A stretch of DNA of 35,029 bases from an uncultured Bacteroidales bacterium (GTDB taxonomy: Bacteria > Bacteroidota > Bacteroidia > Bacteroidales > Muribaculaceae). Position numbers and translations under genes: made by a program. The stretch spans positions 1-35,029 of the forward strand of contig CAMWNG010000015.1 in the NCBI GenBank assembly GCA_947175575.1, in the 5' to 3' direction. The notes under the pieces are model-generated. The model was not told where the DNA came from. It saw nothing but the letters and a program-made list of their open reading frames with translations, and searched no databases. Of the stretch, positions 6,655 through 24,076 are shown one piece after another (position 1 is the stretch's first letter; the number at the start of each line of letters is the position of its first letter).

Positions 6655-6685
6655 AGCAATCAACGACTCTCAACTAATGTAACAA

Positions 6686-6717
6686 AAACGCCGGCGCGTG
6701 AACGTCGGCGTTTGGTT
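6686..6717. terminator. Bidirectional hairpin terminator, copy 1 of a 32-base repeat
   Basis: An 11-base-pair stem (6686-6696 with 6703-6713, one G-T wobble) has a 6-base loop. On the minus strand it is followed by TTTTTGTT, so it can terminate the protease gene that ends at 6750. On the plus strand it lies 31 bases after the folK stop and is followed by a weaker T-rich tail. The same 32 bases recur exactly at 14787-14818. Confidence 0.8.
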
Positions 6718-6749
6718 ATTACAGTCGGGAGTTCCCGTTTGTTATAATG

Positions 6750-9700
6750 CTAAGTCAGATTGTAGCGTACGGTATTTATGATACATATCGAAAACGGGTC
6801 CCGGGTGGAGACGGGCATGGGTGCTTGTGTGAAATAAGGTAGGATTTGCCGCATATCGTTGTATGTGATATCCTTGACAAGTATGAATTTTTCAATAGGG
6901 GTATCGCCCTGAAGATTATATGGGCAGAAGGGGATGGCTCGAGAGTCAAGATCGGGAATCACATCGGACATTTTTGCTGTCTCGGGCAAGAATCTCCATT
7001 TATCGGGATGTTGTCGGCACACGTATTCCTTCATGCTGAAATTTCGCAGTCCCCGAATCACGGAATCATTCAGCGATGTATTGGTGCTGATAATCTCAGG
7101 CAAATCGTGTTTTTTTGTGAAATCTTCATATATAGCCTTGATGTTGACGGAGTCGAGCATTTTGTTACGCCAGTCAGAATAGTATAAGTCCAGACGTTCG
7201 TTCGACAAGACGGACAGAAAGGGATAAGGTACCTGTGGAGAAAGACGGCTTTGTTCGTCTAACGCGGAGTGATAAAGGGCTATCCAGGCTTCGTTGAACT
7301 CCTTGAGATGCATATGTCTGCTCAGGAGCGTAAGACGAAAATCCTCGACATCGCGGATAATGGATCCGTGAATGTGAGCTTTGATGCTCAGGCTGGCCTT
7401 ATATTGTTGCAGAGAGGTTATTTTATTGGCATGAGATTGTATTTCGTCGCGCAATTGCTGACGGTATCTGCGCCAATTGTAACCGAACGCGCTTAACAGT
7501 CCGATAAAAAACGCCGATAAAATTCCGGCTATAACCCAGGGCATAGTGAATTTCGGCATAAGATACACACCTAACCAGGCTAACAAGCAAAATATCCCGG
7601 AATAAAGCAGAATCTTTATATAACTGTGTTTGAATTCGGACAGCTTCTGATTCTTAGAGTCTTGCAGTTCATTGATAACGCAATTCGCGTTAAAAATTTC
7701 TTCATCAAGGCGAGATTTTGCCTTGTCAATGATTTGTCTTTGGTTGTTTACATTCACCAATGTGGCTACGTTCTGAGACCAGTGTGTCTTCAACCTGGCA
7801 GACTCTTCCGCCAGGGTATCGAGTTCGTAATTGTCCTCTTGAATGAGATTTTGGAGAACAGCAGCCTCAATATTAGTGTCGCTCAAGTTGAAATCAAGTG
7901 TTTTCTTATCACTCACGACCTCATTTACCTCAGCAGAGGATGTTAGCTGTGTAATGATGCATGCTTGGTTGATGTATTTCCGGGCATAGGAATATGGCAT
8001 ATAACAATAGCCGTTGTCGCCAAACTCACTACCCCATGAATTTCTTACGACCAGGATTTTTTCTTTATCCGAGTAACCGCATATCACCATTGCGTGGCTT
8101 CCTTGATCTTCACCTGCATTTAATTCCTTGCGTGACGGCTGTCGGATAAAGCCCTTTCGTGTATCCGAGAACGAGTCGAAGATTTGCACGCCAATTATTA
8201 CCGGGAAGCCGTCGTTCAGGGCGGATTTGATGTCTTTAAGGTTGGGTTCGACTGTCTTGGCTTCAAGAACCTTACAGTCGGCCGCTTCACCGAAGGCAGC
8301 CTCCGAGGGCGCAAGTGTAATAATATCTTCGTTGTAGGGCATACTGACCTCGCGGCATATACCCCGTGTGGTTGCAGCGTTGATGACATCATATAAGGAG
8401 GCTCCGATGTCCGCTGCCGCCGTACCGTTGTTCTCCCTTGCGATCCAATACAGGAATGCAGGGCTGTACCGATTATGGCCGGAGCGCATAATTTCTATAA
8501 CCGACGAAATGGCGAACGCAGCACAGCTTCCTTGTTTACCTTGGTTGCGAACAGGTGCGAACAAGTCTCGCAGATCTATACTCTCCTCCTGAACATCGTG
8601 AGGCTCATATGTCAGAGCAAGCGGCTGACTGTCGATCGGAAGGTCAACTTTATATTCTTTGCCGCCAAAATGATACCCTTTGCCATCCAGATGCTTAGCT
8701 GTAGAATCTGATGCCTGAATCTGAGTATAGAGAGTATCCAAGCGGCTTTGACGTTTTCGATTTGCAACCGCTATGTTACGCATATAATTGCGAAGCGTTT
8801 TTATACGAGACTGCGAAACCGGTCTAAGTTTCTTTTTGTCAGCATCAAGTTGGATAAAGAATTTTACTGATTCGTCAATAATGTCATCGATTGTGGTTTC
8901 ATCTGCGTTTACCGCACTACTTTCGAACATGGAGCAATCGTCGGCTAATATAAGCGCAAGCAATGCCTCGCTCTCGAAGATGGATAGCTGCCCCTGCGTA
9001 AACAGGGCATTGATCTTTTTTTGCAGATTATTTACGATGCCTTTCAGATCCCGGTCTATCTCACCGACAATATCTGACGGAATCACACCACCTGAAAGAG
9101 CCAGAACTGCCTTGGCGTGCGCAGCGCGACTATCGTAAAACTCATGAATCTCCTTTAAAATGTCTTTGAGAACAGGATTTGTGCTTTGAGCCAGCGCGTT
9201 GATATTATAGACTCTTTTGTCGATTTCCTGTTGGCGCGACTTATCGATGACAATCTTGTTCAGGATGTATTTTTTATAATACTCTACGTCGAACAGAATT
9301 GAGGATATTCCGAATGACTCAAACGGATATTCGTTGTAATCGACCACCGCAGGATGCAGGACGAGATAATGTTCACACATCCGGGCGGAATATTCCGCAC
9401 AAATTCGCGCCATGGCCTCCGGATTCAAGTCCAGGGATACATTCTGCATATTGCGGTCAGCAATGAGCCTCAGGGCCGCCAGTTTCCCGCGTATTTTGAC
9501 AAGCTCGGCGATATTATCCACGAAGTGCTTTTTATAAACGCCGGGGGCTTGTCTTTCAGCAGGATCAGTGATAAAACACGATACCGCATCATGAGTGAAG
9601 CCGGCGACTTCAATTTTGAAATTGGCATCGCTTGAGTCTACAGCCGAAACAATTTCCTTTATGCAGCCGATTACATTATCGAGGTATAATTTAGCCCAAA

Positions 9701-9998
9701 CCACAACCACGATCGACCGATTGCCGGGATGAGCGACGGTAACTTTCCGACGATACAGATCATCGAAATAATTGAGAAGACCGGTTCGGCGGTCATTATT
9801 GTCAATTATACAGGCATCACTTTTATCGCCGTCGCAGTCGGGAGACAATATATAATTCCCAGTGGGATCGACGGTCATTGAGACAGCGGTGAAAAAGGAC
9901 GGTTCAATGCTCTCATGAAGTCGCCTGTAAATATCGGCAAAAGCGTCTTTGAAAGTTACCAGTTCGTCTCCTGCAAATATGTGGACGATGTGTTGCAT
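6750..9998 (-). CDS. Large papain-family (C1) cysteine protease with membrane hairpin; third gene of the VWA/tubulin-like cassette
   Basis: This 1082-residue protein has no signal peptide. Residues 1-470 form an unrecognised N-terminal region, the second half of it helical. Residues about 476-670 are a papain-like peptidase domain with an intact catalytic set: the oxyanion Gln in NQGKQGSC, Cys492, His635 (GSHAMVICGY) and Asn653 (RNSWGSEFGDNGY). After it come a charged coiled-coil-like stretch, two hydrophobic helices (about 794-813 and 820-840) separated by a short turn, another coiled-coil stretch, and a C-terminal region of about 200 residues that I do not recognise. With no signal peptide and one membrane hairpin, the protease domain should face the cytosol (inference). 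It is the last gene of a three-gene unit, 92 bases after the tubulin-like gene. GC is visibly lower than in the flanking operons. The natural substrate is unknown. Confidence 0.8.
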   Translation of the reverse strand: MQHIVHIFAGDELVTFKDAFADIYRRLHESIEPSFFTAVSMTVDPTGNYILSPDCDGDKSDACIIDNNDRRTGLLNYFDDLYRRKVTVAHPGNRSIVVVVWAKLYLDNVIGCIKEIVSAVDSSDANFKIEVAGFTHDAVSCFITDPAERQAPGVYKKHFVDNIAELVKIRGKLAALRLIADRNMQNVSLDLNPEAMARICAEYSARMCEHYLVLHPAVVDYNEYPFESFGISSILFDVEYYKKYILNKIVIDKSRQQEIDKRVYNINALAQSTNPVLKDILKEIHEFYDSRAAHAKAVLALSGGVIPSDIVGEIDRDLKGIVNNLQKKINALFTQGQLSIFESEALLALILADDCSMFESSAVNADETTIDDIIDESVKFFIQLDADKKKLRPVSQSRIKTLRNYMRNIAVANRKRQSRLDTLYTQIQASDSTAKHLDGKGYHFGGKEYKVDLPIDSQPLALTYEPHDVQEESIDLRDLFAPVRNQGKQGSCAAFAISSVIEIMRSGHNRYSPAFLYWIARENNGTAAADIGASLYDVINAATTRGICREVSMPYNEDIITLAPSEAAFGEAADCKVLEAKTVEPNLKDIKSALNDGFPVIIGVQIFDSFSDTRKGFIRQPSRKELNAGEDQGSHAMVICGYSDKEKILVVRNSWGSEFGDNGYCYMPYSYARKYINQACIITQLTSSAEVNEVVSDKKTLDFNLSDTNIEAAVLQNLIQEDNYELDTLAEESARLKTHWSQNVATLVNVNNQRQIIDKAKSRLDEEIFNANCVINELQDSKNQKLSEFKHSYIKILLYSGIFCLLAWLGVYLMPKFTMPWVIAGILSAFFIGLLSAFGYNWRRYRQQLRDEIQSHANKITSLQQYKASLSIKAHIHGSIIRDVEDFRLTLLSRHMHLKEFNEAWIALYHSALDEQSRLSPQVPYPFLSVLSNERLDLYYSDWRNKMLDSVNIKAIYEDFTKKHDLPEIISTNTSLNDSVIRGLRNFSMKEYVCRQHPDKWRFLPETAKMSDVIPDLDSRAIPFCPYNLQGDTPIEKFILVKDITYNDMRQILPYFTQAPMPVSTRDPFSICIINTVRYNLT

Positions 9999-10017
9999 AA
10001 GGTAAGGGATGGTATAT

Positions 10018-10056
10018 GGTATGAACCCAACCCGTCAGACGAGGCAGGTTCATACC
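10018..10056 (-). other. Inverted repeat between tubulin-like and protease genes
   Basis: A perfect 10-base inverted repeat (10018-10027 GGTATGAACC, 10047-10056 GGTTCATACC) with a 19-base spacer lies in the 92-base gap. It begins 19 bases upstream of the protease start codon. No T-run follows on the minus strand, so it is not a simple terminator. It could be an mRNA processing or stability hairpin that lowers protease output, or a protein-binding site. Confidence 0.55.
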
Positions 10057-10090
10057 CGATGATTGTGATGGAGACTCAATTTAGCGAGAC

Positions 10091-12874
10091 TTACATCTCT
10101 TTATTGACATATTTCAGTTCAGCAGTGAGCTGATCCTTGATACCCTTGTACAAAGGATTGATGAGTTCGGATTGAGATAAGTCATTCAGGGAATATTTCC
10201 CGAGGTAGTTGAGCTTGGCATCTGCGAGAATTGCATCGATGGCATCCTGCCCTTCCGATTTCGCACGATTGTGCATGTGTTCTTCATACTGCGACTGCAA
10301 TCTGTCGGCCTCACGTTTGAAGGCCTTGAACGCTTCGTCGCGATAGGTTGTACCGAGAGAGGTCCAGTAGCCGAACAATGCCGCGTCGTCGTTGGATTCG
10401 TCCTTAAACTGATATGTGCCGTTAGAATCGCGTACGATGAGTCCGAAAATCAATCCCTTGACCCAAAGCTCGAGGCTGTTGTCGGTTCTTTCTTTCGGAA
10501 TAACCGAAAAACCTTCACGTTCCATGGCTATGCGGAGGTCTTCATCAATGAAGCATGAATATGCCGTCTCGCGCGACATGTATTTGTCGTGCGAGTGACG
10601 GTAACTGTCCGTACCTGCAATGGCGAAAGTGGGGAACACACCGTACTGATGATAGAATACAATCCTGTCGCGTGAACCAATTGAAGCGAATGACACTTCA
10701 TGCTGCTCGCCTGCCGGGATGCATGCTTTCAGGTCAATTATACCACCTTTGAGGCCTGTGGATGATTGTTCCTGGACGCCCACATAGTAATAATTGTTTA
10801 ATGTAGGATTGATATGCCCGCGGTAGTTCAGCGGACACATCGGGCTTGACAGGGAGATGGCACGGTTGATGATTTTCCGAACCTCATCTTTAGGCAGTTT
10901 TGCCAATGCATCTTCAACAGTCATGGATTCCCACACATCACCGGAATTGAGAGTGGATGTATGTTTGAGGATATAGCCGGCCACTTCGTCAGGCGTAAGT
11001 TTATCGAAGCCGTATATTTCAATTCCCGCGGGAAGAGACTGGACGAACTGGTTTACGTTGACATCGGTGGGTTGCACATCAACCTGATTCACATACGGCT
11101 GAGTCAGATCGATTTCAAACATGCCGCGAGGCGACATAAGGTTGCTGGTAAGGGTCGCTATGTTATTACGTATGATCTGGCAAGCGCCACGTATAGCAGA
11201 CTCAATGTCATCGAGTTTACGGTCAGCTTCCGTCAATTCCTGCATAAACCAGGTATAGAAGGAAATAGCCCCATTGCGGCGATGTATCTCACGGTCGTTA
11301 ATCACGGCATTATTTACCACCATACACAGTGTTTCGACGGCTTCCTGCACTGCTTTCGCTTTGCCGAAGAATTTTCCGTTTGCAGCTTTGTATTCCTCGA
11401 TGGCGGTGTTAACGGCACTGTTGCGGGCGTTTACCGCGTTCTGACATGCTTCGCGTTCCTCACGCATTTCCTTGAGGCAAATCTCAATCTGCGAACGCAC
11501 CTGGCTGATGAATTCCGTAGCATAAACAGGGCCTTTGGTATTCACAAGATTCTTTATCTTAGACTCGAAAGAGCCGCGGACTTTCTTCTTGAGCTCATCA
11601 ACTTTAGCGGAGAGGTCGGCCGGGAGTACGGCTACACCTGCGAGACCTCGATAATTGTTGATGTCAGCCATGGGATTGGCTTTGTCGTAAATGTCCTGAA
11701 GAACCGACTGCGGATTCTTCGGTAACAGGTAATCAATAACCTGATCCTGACCGTTGTTCTCACGGATTTGTTCTGTATCAATCCAGGCATTGGCTTCATT
11801 GTCAGCATTGCTTCCGGGATTGAGCAAGGCGGAAGCAAGTTCGCGGGCAGCCTTTTCGCTGTAAAGGGCCGAAAGCTCGGATGCGCGGAAAGTAATCTCA
11901 CTCATGCCGAGGGTGCCAATCACGGCGCGCTTGTTTGCTATGTCGTAGTCACCGGAATTCATGTCACGCTCAAGGTTATTGGCCGTGCTGCTTACCCCGC
12001 TTGAGAGCTCACCAGCCGTGACGACCATTGCCATGCTCATCATCTGGGAGAGATGGTCGCTGTGGTTTACAACATCACCATTGAGGTTTCGGTTGCTGAT
12101 AGCGATCACGCTATTGAACGGAGAACCAATAAGCGTACGTTGCTCGGTAAGATAATTTACAGGTGTGCGCTTGTCAAACGGGAAGTGCATCATGTAGTCG
12201 AGGTCGATGAGCGATCCGCATGCGTTCGGGAACAGTCGTTCCTTGCCAAAGGTAAGCTGGGCGTCATAGACGTCGGGAAGAACCATATAACCTACAATCT
12301 TTGAAGTTTCCGGCAGAGCCTGCTCTCTGAAAATATCCTTTACTATGTATGCCATATCAAGGAAATTACCGGAGCCGGTACCACCGGCGATAGAAAACAC
12401 AATATTTACCTCGACATCGTTGGAGATCAACTCATATTTGTCGTTGTGTACTGTGGTGAGGTTTCGTATTTGATTGAGTGCGTTCTGAATGTTAGAGCGC
12501 GATTTCCTATAGTTGAATGAAAATGCGATACGGCCATTGGTCCGCACCATACCGCACCCGTTTTCCAAATCAGCAACCGCCTGCAGATTGCGGTCAGGGA
12601 GCCAGCTCAAAGCACTGCGATTGCGGCTAACTTTGTCCTTAGACTGTGTAACCATTATATCCGAGGATTCGGCCGGGTCAAATTTAACATCGCCGTGAAT
12701 CGAGCTTAACGAATAGTTTTTATACTGGTTCTTATCCGAATCAAAAGCGAGGAACTTGATCATCGGTGGAACTTCGCCGTAGGTTTCGATGAAGGCACGT
12801 TTCGTGTGGAGCAGGGTTTTGAACCCGGTGCCACCCAGCCCTATATAAAGAGTACGTTTGAGTTTGGGAACCAT
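10091..12874 (-). CDS. Tubulin-like GTPase-domain protein (Tubulin_2 type)
   Basis: This 927-residue cytosolic protein has the nucleotide-binding features of the tubulin/FtsZ superfamily. There is an N-terminal beta-strand and glycine loop, LYIGLGGTGFK (GLGGTG at residues 12-17), and the signature loop AGGTGSG at residues 163-169. A conserved-looking segment, NACGSLIDLDYM, follows. It is far longer than FtsZ (about 380 residues). The extra length includes a charged helical region (about residues 420-560) and a long C-terminal part that I do not recognise. It matches the broad family of bacterial tubulin-like proteins (Pfam Tubulin_2), for which I know no settled function. It lies 9 bases downstream of the VWA gene, implying co-translation and a likely physical partnership. 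GTP binding is well supported; polymerisation is only inferred. Confidence 0.85.
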   Translation of the reverse strand: MVPKLKRTLYIGLGGTGFKTLLHTKRAFIETYGEVPPMIKFLAFDSDKNQYKNYSLSSIHGDVKFDPAESSDIMVTQSKDKVSRNRSALSWLPDRNLQAVADLENGCGMVRTNGRIAFSFNYRKSRSNIQNALNQIRNLTTVHNDKYELISNDVEVNIVFSIAGGTGSGNFLDMAYIVKDIFREQALPETSKIVGYMVLPDVYDAQLTFGKERLFPNACGSLIDLDYMMHFPFDKRTPVNYLTEQRTLIGSPFNSVIAISNRNLNGDVVNHSDHLSQMMSMAMVVTAGELSSGVSSTANNLERDMNSGDYDIANKRAVIGTLGMSEITFRASELSALYSEKAARELASALLNPGSNADNEANAWIDTEQIRENNGQDQVIDYLLPKNPQSVLQDIYDKANPMADINNYRGLAGVAVLPADLSAKVDELKKKVRGSFESKIKNLVNTKGPVYATEFISQVRSQIEICLKEMREEREACQNAVNARNSAVNTAIEEYKAANGKFFGKAKAVQEAVETLCMVVNNAVINDREIHRRNGAISFYTWFMQELTEADRKLDDIESAIRGACQIIRNNIATLTSNLMSPRGMFEIDLTQPYVNQVDVQPTDVNVNQFVQSLPAGIEIYGFDKLTPDEVAGYILKHTSTLNSGDVWESMTVEDALAKLPKDEVRKIINRAISLSSPMCPLNYRGHINPTLNNYYYVGVQEQSSTGLKGGIIDLKACIPAGEQHEVSFASIGSRDRIVFYHQYGVFPTFAIAGTDSYRHSHDKYMSRETAYSCFIDEDLRIAMEREGFSVIPKERTDNSLELWVKGLIFGLIVRDSNGTYQFKDESNDDAALFGYWTSLGTTYRDEAFKAFKREADRLQSQYEEHMHNRAKSEGQDAIDAILADAKLNYLGKYSLNDLSQSELINPLYKGIKDQLTAELKYVNKEM

Positions 12875-12883
12875 GATATATAA

Positions 12884-14662
12884 TTAGTTTAGATTTAAGT
12901 CAATTTTGAAAGAAGGATTGTTAACGTCGAGAATCTTAAAGGTCATCCCGCGTGTCAGCACCGGTGACGGATCGCACACCAGCGCGCCGCTCGGACAACG
13001 GAATCGCATGCTCGTCCCAGCCGGAGTAAGTTGCGCCTCGCAAGGCCATGCCCCATTCGTGTGGTACAGTATCTTGCCCCGCCATAATCTGTCAAAAAGG
13101 CTTTGTGTGCGGTTTTGCGCACTGAAAACCACACTTCTGTAACCCTTCACCCGGATTGTGGCGAAATAAGGGTTCTGAACTGTTACTATACCCTTCTTAA
13201 ACTTTGGATAGAGCCGATTGCGTAAGACGCCGAACCAAACCAGGAGGAACAGGACGATGAGACCTAAAACTGACCAGCATAGGACTTCCAAAAGGCTCAT
13301 CCGGGTTGTCACTACGCCTGAGAGGGTAACAATTTTATGCTCGGGGCGTTGTCCGTTAATCCGATCAAGATTTACAGAGTGGATCTCAGCAAGTGTAAGG
13401 TCGAAACTTCCATCGCCTGCCGATTGAGGCACAACAATTTCCAAAACAGCCGGCGCTTCAGTCTGCACGCTAACAGTGCTGTCCGAGCCTACGGGAGATC
13501 CATTGAACAGTATTTCTTTTCCTGCCAACTCATTCGGAGCTCCGACCTTGAACATTGCCGAGCTTCTGTCTAAAACAGCCTCATGGCTAAAGACCGGTGC
13601 GAGATCCCAACGCAAGGTGTCAGCCGGATTGCCTTTAATCCAAAGGAAAGGTCGAACTCTGCTGACTTCGGAGAGATTGCCGTCTGTTGCAAGATCAAGC
13701 GACCGGAGAGGTTTGTTATGAAGCACTATGTCAATGTCGGGATTGGTAATGATGACGTCTTCGCCGGTTATTGTGGCAGGAATTTCAACCGCGGGAGCAT
13801 TGATGGCCTTGTTGAGGGTCTCGATATTGTCGCCGAGTTTCGACCGGAATTGCAGCACAACCTTTCCACCGGCAATTCTGTTGTCTTTGACAGTGACCTC
13901 CACGAATGGATTCTCAGCACCGACAATATCCGCAGCAAAAGTGCCTGAATTTGAAAAGCCGAGCGTGATATCGACGGGCAGGTCCCGCGTATTCAAATGG
14001 ATTACATCATCCGAATTACAGCCAAACGAAGGAATTCCGGCTGATGCATCAAGTTTGTAAAGGTCATTGCATACATCTATGGCATTCTGTATGCCCGCCG
14101 GCAGCGAGGCCGCGGCTGTAAGTTCAATATAGAAACCTTTTGTGTTGCGATATTTTCCACAGAAGCTTCTCAGGATCTGCGCCAGAAGTTCAGATCTGTT
14201 CGACTCGTTTACCGATCCACCGATGTTATCGTGACCGTCAGTGAGCAATATGATATAGTTTTCTTGTGCCTGGTCAATATACCGTTCCGCTTCAAGCCAA
14301 GAATCGCAGATATTGGTCGCGGTGATATTTTTCAGATAACCGTCCAGCTCTTTCTCGAGAGTCGGCCATGAGATATTTTCCAAATCAACATATATCGGGT
14401 GGAGTACCTTCTGTTGAAACGGCAGAATCGTGATTTGCGAAGATGGATTCTCCTTCGCTTCTTTTTCAAGTTCGGCCTTAAGGAAAGCTTTCGTGGGCAT
14501 CCAGATATCAGGAGCACCGTTGTACCCGCCCATCGAACCTGTGCAGTCAAGCACATAGATTGTGTTGCGCAGGCGGCTTTGACCCTGAGCAAAGGCACAA
14601 ACCGGGATTATCAGAGCTAAAAGAATCCAACATATTCTGCTGATCGGGCCGTTTTTATACAT
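12884..14662 (-). CDS. Membrane-anchored VWA-domain protein; first gene of the cassette
   Basis: This 592-residue protein starts with a hydrophobic signal sequence (about residues 10-25, ending CAFAQ). A von Willebrand factor A domain follows (about 33-200) with a MIDAS metal site: Asp39-x-Thr41-x-Ser43 in DCTGSM, a candidate Thr at 114 or 116, and Asp142 in LLTDGHDN. Residues about 220-460 look like beta-rich, Ig-type extracytoplasmic modules. A single strong membrane helix (about 464-487, LIVLFLLVWFGVL) precedes a basic tail of about 100 residues containing a compact domain (VTVQNPYFATIRVKGY onward). The predicted topology is VWA domain outside the inner membrane and tail in the cytosol. 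It is the first gene after the predicted promoter. The ligand is unknown. Tail contact with the tubulin-like protein is inference. Confidence 0.85.
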   Translation of the reverse strand: MYKNGPISRICWILLALIIPVCAFAQGQSRLRNTIYVLDCTGSMGGYNGAPDIWMPTKAFLKAELEKEAKENPSSQITILPFQQKVLHPIYVDLENISWPTLEKELDGYLKNITATNICDSWLEAERYIDQAQENYIILLTDGHDNIGGSVNESNRSELLAQILRSFCGKYRNTKGFYIELTAAASLPAGIQNAIDVCNDLYKLDASAGIPSFGCNSDDVIHLNTRDLPVDITLGFSNSGTFAADIVGAENPFVEVTVKDNRIAGGKVVLQFRSKLGDNIETLNKAINAPAVEIPATITGEDVIITNPDIDIVLHNKPLRSLDLATDGNLSEVSRVRPFLWIKGNPADTLRWDLAPVFSHEAVLDRSSAMFKVGAPNELAGKEILFNGSPVGSDSTVSVQTEAPAVLEIVVPQSAGDGSFDLTLAEIHSVNLDRINGQRPEHKIVTLSGVVTTRMSLLEVLCWSVLGLIVLFLLVWFGVLRNRLYPKFKKGIVTVQNPYFATIRVKGYRSVVFSAQNRTQSLFDRLWRGKILYHTNGAWPCEAQLTPAGTSMRFRCPSGALVCDPSPVLTRGMTFKILDVNNPSFKIDLNLN

Positions 14663-14731: not shown

Positions 14732-14786
14732 AATATAAAATATCACATATCCACTATTGTAAGACGACTTTTTATATTTAAAACTC

Positions 14787-14818
14787 AAACGCCGGCGCGT
14801 GAACGTCGGCGTTTGGTT
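14787..14818. terminator. Hairpin terminator, copy 2 of the 32-base repeat
   Basis: It is identical over 32 bases to 6686-6717, with the same 11-base-pair stem and 6-base loop. It lies 38 bases after the stop of the lipoprotein gene ending at 14853, just as copy 1 lies 36 bases after the protease stop. Its minus-strand tail is less T-rich than that of copy 1. The two copies bracket the VWA/tubulin-like/protease cassette. Confidence 0.7.
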
Positions 14819-14852
14819 GTTATATGGCGTTAAATGCTTTTACGCGCATGAA

Positions 14853-23939: not shown

Positions 23940-23970
23940 TTGGCGGAACGCATTTTTGTGCGTAACTTTG
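23940..23970 (+). promoter_or_regulatory. Promoter for SRP RNA
   Basis: TTG at 23940-23942, a 20-base spacer, then TAACTTTG at 23963-23970 form a textbook Bacteroidetes promoter. The first base of the RNA stem (23976) is six bases downstream. Between the palindromic element and this promoter (23842-23939) I see no gene. Confidence 0.75.
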
Positions 23971-23975
23971 CAGCG

Positions 23976-24069
23976 GGTAAGTCCTACACGACCAGCTCCC
24001 TGAGAATCCCCCAGGTCTTGACCGAAGCAAGGGTATCAGGTCGTAGCGGTGCGATGTAGTAAGCTTACC
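23976..24069 (+). ncRNA. ffs: Signal recognition particle RNA, small bacterial (4.5S) type
   Basis: The sequence folds as one long hairpin: GGTAAG (23976-23981) pairs with CTTACC (24064-24069), CTACA with TGTAG, CGACC with GGTCG, and CCC with GGG. The apical part has CAGGTC (24012-24017), six loop bases, then GAAGCA (24024-24029). This is the conserved Ffh-binding core, the same pattern as in E. coli 4.5S RNA. A T-run (24070-24076) follows the closing stem and ends the transcript. The RNA pairs with Ffh to target membrane proteins to the translocon. It lies directly upstream of queF. Confidence 0.88.
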
Positions 24070-24076
24070 TTTTTTT
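24064..24076 (+). terminator. T-run terminator of SRP RNA
   Basis: The closing stem of the SRP RNA followed by seven T residues can act as an intrinsic terminator. The queF start lies only 33 bases further on, with no separate promoter visible, so queF may depend on read-through. Confidence 0.6.

Follow-up and report, generated by a model that had tools for sequence, protein, structure and literature searches.

The 35,029-nucleotide stretch of contig CAMWNG010000015.1, from an uncultured Bacteroidales bacterium of the family Muribaculaceae and called the window below, carries three genes on its minus strand in the order VWA protein, tubulin and a third protein containing a papain domain. The genes are separated by 9 bp and then by 92 bp. 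The original prediction for this DNA had described one operon with gaps of 9 and 92 bases, an intact metal-ion-dependent adhesion site (MIDAS) in the VWA protein, a 927-residue tubulin-like protein with the loops GLGGTG and GGTGSG, and a 1082-residue C1 protease with an intact Cys-His-Asn set. Open reading frames (ORFs) and gaps were found as stated there, and all of the named loops and residues were located. The features are collected in Table 1.

Table 1. Features of the three-gene cassette and its borders, in window coordinates (aa, amino acids; TM, transmembrane).
Feature	Position	Strand	Basis
VWA protein gene, 592 aa	12884-14662	-	ORF call; VWA_2 match
MIDAS D39-x-T41-x-S43	14534-14548	-	11-protein alignment
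Predicted single TM helix, VWA protein residues 453-484	13211-13306	-	hydropathy
Tubulin_2 (FtsZl1-type) putative GTPase gene, 927 aa	10091-12874	-	ORF call; PF13809
Glycine loop GLGGTG, tubulin residues 12-17	12824-12841	-	sequence
Tubulin signature loop GGTGSG, residues 164-169	12368-12385	-	sequence
Tubulin C-terminal region 507-744, matching the C-terminal part of the third protein	10643-11356	-	profile-profile
Third protein gene, 1082 aa, with papain domain	6750-9998	-	ORF call; PF00112
Probable N-terminal pseudo-tubulin part, residues 1-256	9231-9998	-	profile match, structural alignment
Papain (C1) domain, residues 472-685	7944-8585	-	PF00112, alignment
Cys492 codon	8523-8525	-	papain active site
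His635 codon	8094-8096	-	papain active site
Asn653 codon	8040-8042	-	papain active site
Predicted TM hairpin, third protein residues 793-841	7476-7622	-	hydropathy
C-terminal tubulin-like part, residues 842-1077	6768-7475	-	profile-profile
41-nt direct repeat, copy 1, hairpin, just outside the third gene	6681-6721		
41-nt direct repeat, copy 2, terminator-like hairpin, upstream of the VWA gene	14782-14822		

The VWA protein matched VWA_2 with 20.8 bits, below the cut-off of 27. Its MIDAS set is completed by T116 and D142. In an alignment of 11 VWA proteins, which omits those of locus L083 (broken by a stop) and locus L090 (split into two genes), D39, S43, T116 and D142 were invariant and T41 nearly so. 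Hydropathy segments were observed at residues 4-29 and 453-484, and this two-segment pattern, with one segment at the N-terminus and a single helix around residue 430-535, was found in all 15 VWA proteins scanned. The protein is predicted to have an N-terminal hydrophobic export signal, a periplasmic VWA domain with a further region, one TM helix and a cytosolic tail of about 108 aa.

The second protein matched PF13809 (Tubulin_2) with an E-value of 3.9e-51 (174.8 bits against a cut-off of 27). GGTG was kept at both GTP loops in every aligned member of the clade covering them. No hydrophobic segment above the threshold was observed in the window tubulin, and when PDB sequences were searched with its profile, the only matches had E-values of 0.18 to 1. 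Motifs and family match assign the protein to Tubulin_2/FtsZl1 as a putative GTPase.

The third protein matched Peptidase_C1 (PF00112) with an E-value of 4.3e-15 (56.8 bits; cut-off 20.7), and its active-site set consists of Q486, C492, H635 and N653. Gln, His and Asn were present in 16/16 aligned copies and Cys in 15, and the full set was found in 15/16, the window copy included. In the copy at L082:13995-17252, a Ser stands in place of the catalytic Cys, with a Cys located one residue earlier. Within the third protein, conservation was highest in the papain part, with a median pairwise identity of 41% compared to 15-23% elsewhere. The best 60 of 135 PDB matches of this part were all papain-type proteases, with the Xylella protease 3ois at the top. 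The domain is a probable C1 protease with a conserved active site. Two hydropathy segments between residues 790 and 870 were observed in 9/16 copies, including that of the window, and one segment in six; in L118 none was over the threshold. The hydropathy patterns therefore predict an outside location for the VWA domain and an inside one for the tail of the VWA protein, for the tubulin and for the papain domain. The third protein is predicted to be tied to the inner membrane, with its papain domain in the cytosol.

Two further parts of the third protein resembled tubulin. From the N-terminus, it consists of a probable pseudo-tubulin part, a helical part, the papain domain, the TM hairpin and a tubulin-like C-terminal part. 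In profile-profile comparison (hhalign), residues 173-256 matched tubulin residues 253-349, and the C-terminal part scored 58.7 against a maximum of 21.0 in 60 block shuffles. The N- and C-terminal matches are colinear, and each beat all 60 shuffles and 20 other families, one of which (L042) has a weak Tubulin_2 match itself. A set of 40 proteins chosen as negatives was not clean either, as its six best members were two tubulins and four third proteins. In a VIA-align structural alignment based on a low-confidence model with low pLDDT (predicted local distance difference test), residues 1-189 matched FtsZ, CetZ and PhuZ, with FtsZ and CetZ placed higher than Ras, Rag and further alpha/beta folds. 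VIA-align matches to coiled-coil proteins (residues 700-905) and to one unnamed microtubule-doublet chain were not relied upon. GGTG was absent from both GTP-loop places in 16/16 copies, and the third protein is therefore a pseudo-tubulin at most. On these comparisons it is most likely a divergent paralogue of the adjacent tubulin, with both GTP loops lost. The papain domain and membrane hairpin were most likely inserted at a site whose flanks correspond to tubulin residues 349 and 507. The original prediction overlooked this probable location of the protease inside a degenerate tubulin paralogue. The likeness could also be due to chance, or to a generic alpha/beta fold and a coiled coil, in a separate membrane protease family travelling with vWA/FtsZl1. 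This would fit with the PF13809 Pfam model finding no match in the third protein, with the low pLDDT, with narrow profiles showing the N-terminal part only as a weak match, and with a C-terminal match confined to the same tubulin clade. Two colinear matches that beat every shuffle and comparison family, together with the ranking of FtsZ and CetZ over other alpha/beta folds, make such an explanation improbable.

The three genes were traced in 149 genomes of the window's family, and the tubulin also in 49 genomes of its genus. In the family sample, 15 genomes had a match to the tubulin query, which in ten of these covered most of the query. The profile of the third protein matched 51 genomes, nearly full length in ten and mostly as short papain stretches in the rest, and the VWA profile matched 14, ten of them strongly (one of these in two parts, another interrupted by a stop). 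Near-full tubulin, near-full third protein and strong VWA match occurred in the identical ten genomes. Because all three proteins single out the same ten of 149 genomes, their co-occurrence is beyond chance. A third protein without any listed tubulin or VWA match was seen in G914, cut by a contig end, and in G864, where it is short. The latter homologue (L106:5143-6900, contig G864:C15) has no papain domain or TM hairpin, lies 165 bp from the contig end and adjoins genes looking like ftsY and rimO. In the genus sample, near-full tubulins were found in 8/49 genomes and weak matches in three further.

All three genes were present in order at 17 loci (the window, L003, L082-L090 and L117-L122). 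Among these, the third gene is truncated by the end of the contig in L121 and L084, and the VWA protein is split into two genes in L090 and has one stop in L083. The tubulin and third genes overlap by 4 or 8 bases in 5/17 loci. L035 and L037, from other families of the order, carry a VWA gene and a tubulin of the clade (above 950 bits with the clade profile, which itself includes both), together with a different third gene that has no Pfam match or papain domain. The complete trio is therefore found at 17 of the 19 Bacteroidales loci of the tubulin clade. In wider samples, Tubulin_2 was found in 20/393 genomes of the order, and the clade profile matched 9/395 genomes of the phylum, the sole full-length match being the window's own. 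A class-wide search with the third protein matched 84/395 genomes; among the matches listed, all except the window's own were within residues 423-785, nearly all papain. A Deinococcus C1 peptidase (38.7% identity) was rejected as a relative of the system, as the annotation shows neither a tubulin nor a vWA gene within 9 kb of it. Judged from these genomes, VWA protein, tubulin and third protein form a true, conserved and co-inherited operon. The proposal that they co-occur in the same order holds within one family; at L035 and L037, the two clade loci from other families of the order, the third gene lacks the papain domain.

The operon appears, from its sequence relationships, to be mobile between genera. 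The window tubulin was 84% identical to that of G905, from another genus, and 79% to that of G1291, a metagenome-assembled genome labelled Muribaculum, but only 30-33% to those of three congeners. The corresponding identities for IleS were 68-73% in all eight comparisons, and for ValS 66-78% in seven. Tubulin and third-protein trees agreed in their main groups, with L090 and L122 placed differently, and scattered the window's genus over several groups. Among 138 flank ORFs, genes were common only to L083, L084 and L090 and to L086 and L089. Old duplicates followed by losses could yield the same pattern of identities and trees as transfer.

Two copies of a 41-nt direct repeat, 93% identical and exact over 32 nt, bracket the window's cassette. 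No further copies were detected, either in the window with up to 3 mismatches allowed or, with up to 6, across about 412 kb of the 2.36-Mb genome. Exact repeats of other sequence surround L085 (18 nt) and L117 (19 nt). Flanking repeats were thus observed at 3/15 loci, compared to 6/2000 random stretch pairs, in a test that omits L084 and L121 and has just 104 bp on one side of L003. The repeats may be insertion scars, as far as their position and sequence indicate. One window copy is terminator-like, and recombination at terminators is therefore an alternative. For the window's empty site, the two flanks were not side by side among the genus matches listed. A single tRNA was detected; it lies in L085, at a distance of about 1 kb from the cassette. 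Carriage of the cassette by phages or plasmids was rejected: a scan of viral contigs found none, and the tubulin matches from a plasmid search (five records) and a phage search (one record) were partial. An unannotated faecal phage contig, L183 (MT836542.1), has a Tubulin_2-like match at 6943-7608 (28.6% identity, E 5e-10).

On one side, the window cassette has an RND efflux set and HPPK as neighbours, and on the other, DUF5689 proteins. A Bacteroidales small signal recognition particle RNA is located further away in the window, at 23968-24074 on the plus strand. The GC content of the cassette was 0.473, compared to 0.556 in the remaining window, in agreement with the low GC first noted for it. 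As a hallmark of the system, low GC was rejected: the cassette was below its flanks in 8/17 loci, and the mean difference was about zero.

Defence genes were sought with PADLOC 2.0.0 models, of which no family was matched by any of the three window proteins at E-values up to 1. The 89 flank ORFs of the family cassettes matched 15 families with one member each, about six proteins by family name, and 70 control ORFs from eight arbitrary stretches matched four families with five memberships, about three proteins. PADLOC output counts members per family and not proteins, and of the groupings by name only PDC-S01 was confirmed as one protein. The actual protein counts may therefore be larger, reaching at most 10 and 5, and the comparison of about 6/89 with about 3/70 by Fisher's test (p = 0.73) is approximate. 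No clear enrichment beside the family cassettes was observed, and the suggested location in defence islands is not supported in the window's family. The candidate defence gene PDC-S01 lies at L087:14737-16032, 4.6 kb from the cassette, and at L179:14606-15772, where it immediately precedes the Meiothermus vWA gene.

On the Thermales plasmids pTHEOS01, pMESIL01 and pMtWR-220 (L168, L169 and L179), a vWA-tubulin pair is followed by a gene of 677-686 aa. On two of these plasmids brxL comes directly after the third gene, and on pMESIL01 after an insertion sequence copy. The surroundings hold helicases and exonucleases, Hma genes on one plasmid and methyltransferases on two; the loci sit among Hma-, DISARM- and Druantia-like genes. 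The Thermales tubulins matched the clade profile with E-values of 6.4e-91 to 8.6e-89 and 4.5e-91, the homology covering the GTPase part as well as stretches of the C-terminal half, and their vWA proteins are homologous to the cassette VWA protein (E 1.2e-8 to 3.1e-12). The Thermales third gene gave no hidden Markov model match to the papain-bearing third protein, and in hhalign 1, 9, 10 and 11 of 40 shuffles reached or passed the scores of its pieces. For L035, L037, L094/L095, L114 and Thermales alike, homology of the third gene to the papain-bearing third protein was not clearly supported, most hhalign scores being near noise. The Thermales set near brxL may be an undescribed defence add-on. 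On the Azospirillum plasmid p2 (L180), another tubulin-protease neighbourhood was seen, with a Tubulin_2 gene amid OmpA, DUF4384 and three caspase-family genes.

An explanation for the window operon could be a dedicated anti-phage system, in which the VWA protein or the tubulin would sense infection and the protease would kill or arrest the cell. The signs of mobility in identity pattern, trees and repeats fit with this, as do the Thermales trio with brxL, Hma and other defence-type genes around it, and the prediction of tubulin/vWA sets as conflict systems (PMC7159879). The absence of a clear PADLOC enrichment beside the family cassettes and the unsupported homology of the Thermales third gene speak against it, and we find this explanation somewhat doubtful.

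Our preferred reading, tentative and a little short of an even chance, is an operon, apparently moving between genomes, that encodes one machine of a periplasmic sensor, a GTP-dependent scaffold and a membrane-anchored cytosolic protease. The VWA protein would bind a ligand or feel an envelope disturbance, and the signal would be passed via its TM helix and cytosolic tail. GTP-bound tubulin would then assemble with the pseudo-tubulin at the membrane, and clustering or the GTP cycle would switch the papain domain on, or release it, to cut cytosolic or membrane targets. The purpose would most likely be a conflict or stress response, perhaps anti-phage, and the cost of the machine could explain its frequent gain and loss. 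The original prediction had likewise proposed an envelope sensor, a polymer and a tethered protease. The conserved unit, the envelope-facing VWA protein, the tubulin-like GTPase and the papain-type protease with a predicted anchor support the parts of that proposal; for their coupling, we infer the sensor step, the co-assembly and the protease switch. Where the tubulins were 79-84% identical, the VWA proteins were 55-58% and the third proteins 54-55% identical, and this faster divergence fits with partners under changing pressure.

A more specific form of this machine, which we regard as rather unlikely, is a tubulin heteropolymer with a protease-bearing subunit that lacks the GTP loops. GTP-driven co-assembly would gather papain domains at the membrane, where they would be activated by proximity under the periplasmic VWA sensor. 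Apoptosome-type scaffolds switch on caspases in an analogous manner. To our knowledge, no tubulin-based scaffold that activates a protease has been known earlier, and the cassette would be the first.

The same proteins could instead serve membrane remodelling or surface organisation, with a membrane-bound tubulin polymer shaping the envelope or positioning surface machines, and the protease just trimming or turning over parts. Such a role was proposed for vWA/FtsZl1 operons in 2010 (PMC2875224). It fits with the hydrophobic segments in two of the three proteins, and with the Synechocystis Tubulin_2 gene sll0445, disruption of which impaired phototaxis and whose product reportedly interacts with proteins of pilus assembly (PMC9880817). 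The patchy presence (10/149 family and 8/49 genus genomes), the apparent transfer between genera and the faster divergence of VWA and third proteins than of the tubulin speak against a basic cell function. The papain part is moreover the best conserved part of the third protein, and we consider this explanation unlikely.

The role of FtsZl1/Tubulin_2 has been a standing question since 2010, and the operon is a compact, testable version of it, with three genes, one enzyme of known mechanism and a natural pair of GTPase and pseudo-GTPase. If the tubulin does switch the protease, tubulins would gain a signalling role as activating scaffolds, distinct from a cytoskeletal one, and the known mobile systems for defence or stress would grow by one.

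Other Bacteroidales Tubulin_2 genes are arranged differently. In rough outline, in L027-L032, L036, L038 and L091-L093 a TM protein of about 200 aa, a tubulin of about 750-1070 aa and a TM protein of about 200-340 aa are followed at the end by a string of proteins with export-like starts. In L094, L095 and L114, the genes encode a 538-558-aa protein (with a weak VWA-profile match in L094), a tubulin of 1077-1140 aa and a third protein of 768-952 aa.

Operons of vWA and FtsZl1 (Tubulin_2) were described in 2010 by Makarova and Koonin as a predicted membrane-remodelling system; their vWA proteins are partly exported or membrane-bound with a mostly intact MIDAS, and Bacteroides caccae is among the aligned species (PMC2875224). 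The window cassette likewise pairs Tubulin_2 with a vWA gene in one operon. Kinases, P-loop GTPases and OmpA are frequent partners there (PMC2875224), but none of these was found at E 1e-5 among ten scanned window neighbours, and a papain protease or a second, degenerate tubulin is not named in the passages considered, the additional-file gene tables aside. The GTPase-centric GAP1-N2 tubulin/vWA conflict systems predicted by Kaur et al. in 2020 (PMC7159879) also combine coiled-coil tubulins (two in Firmicutes) with an extracellular vWA protein in a predicted conflict role. They are, however, centred on a GAP1 GTPase and FNIII proteins, neither of which was found among the ten scanned neighbours, and no papain-tubulin fusion is named in the passages considered of that article. 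The MoxR-vWA ternary system differs in its MoxR AAA+ ATPase, which was likewise not found among the ten neighbours. The Thermales plasmid loci share homologous tubulin and vWA genes and a third gene directly downstream, but differ in the size of the latter and in its lack of a match to the papain-bearing third. C1 peptidases such as xylellain (3ois) of Xylella share the papain domain with Gln-Cys-His-Asn; that of the window instead sits within a tubulin-like protein that lacks an export signal and is predicted to be cytosolic and anchored to the membrane. A 2023 survey treats Tubulin_2 proteins as distinct from FtsZ and tubulin proper (PMC9871819), and the word tubulin is absent from the main text of a 2026 BREX survey (PMC12839542). 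In the open-licence literature, bioRxiv and supplementary gene tables aside, no papain or pseudo-tubulin partner of vWA/FtsZl1 was found. The cassette had been put forward as an undescribed system. As far as the cited texts go, this does not hold for the vWA and FtsZl1 pair, known since 2010 (PMC2875224), or for tubulin/vWA conflict systems, known since 2020 (PMC7159879); it stands for the papain-bearing third partner, which was not found in print. Compared with these known systems, the new part is, on sequence grounds, a probable tubulin-derived protease as the third gene of a vWA/FtsZl1-type operon.

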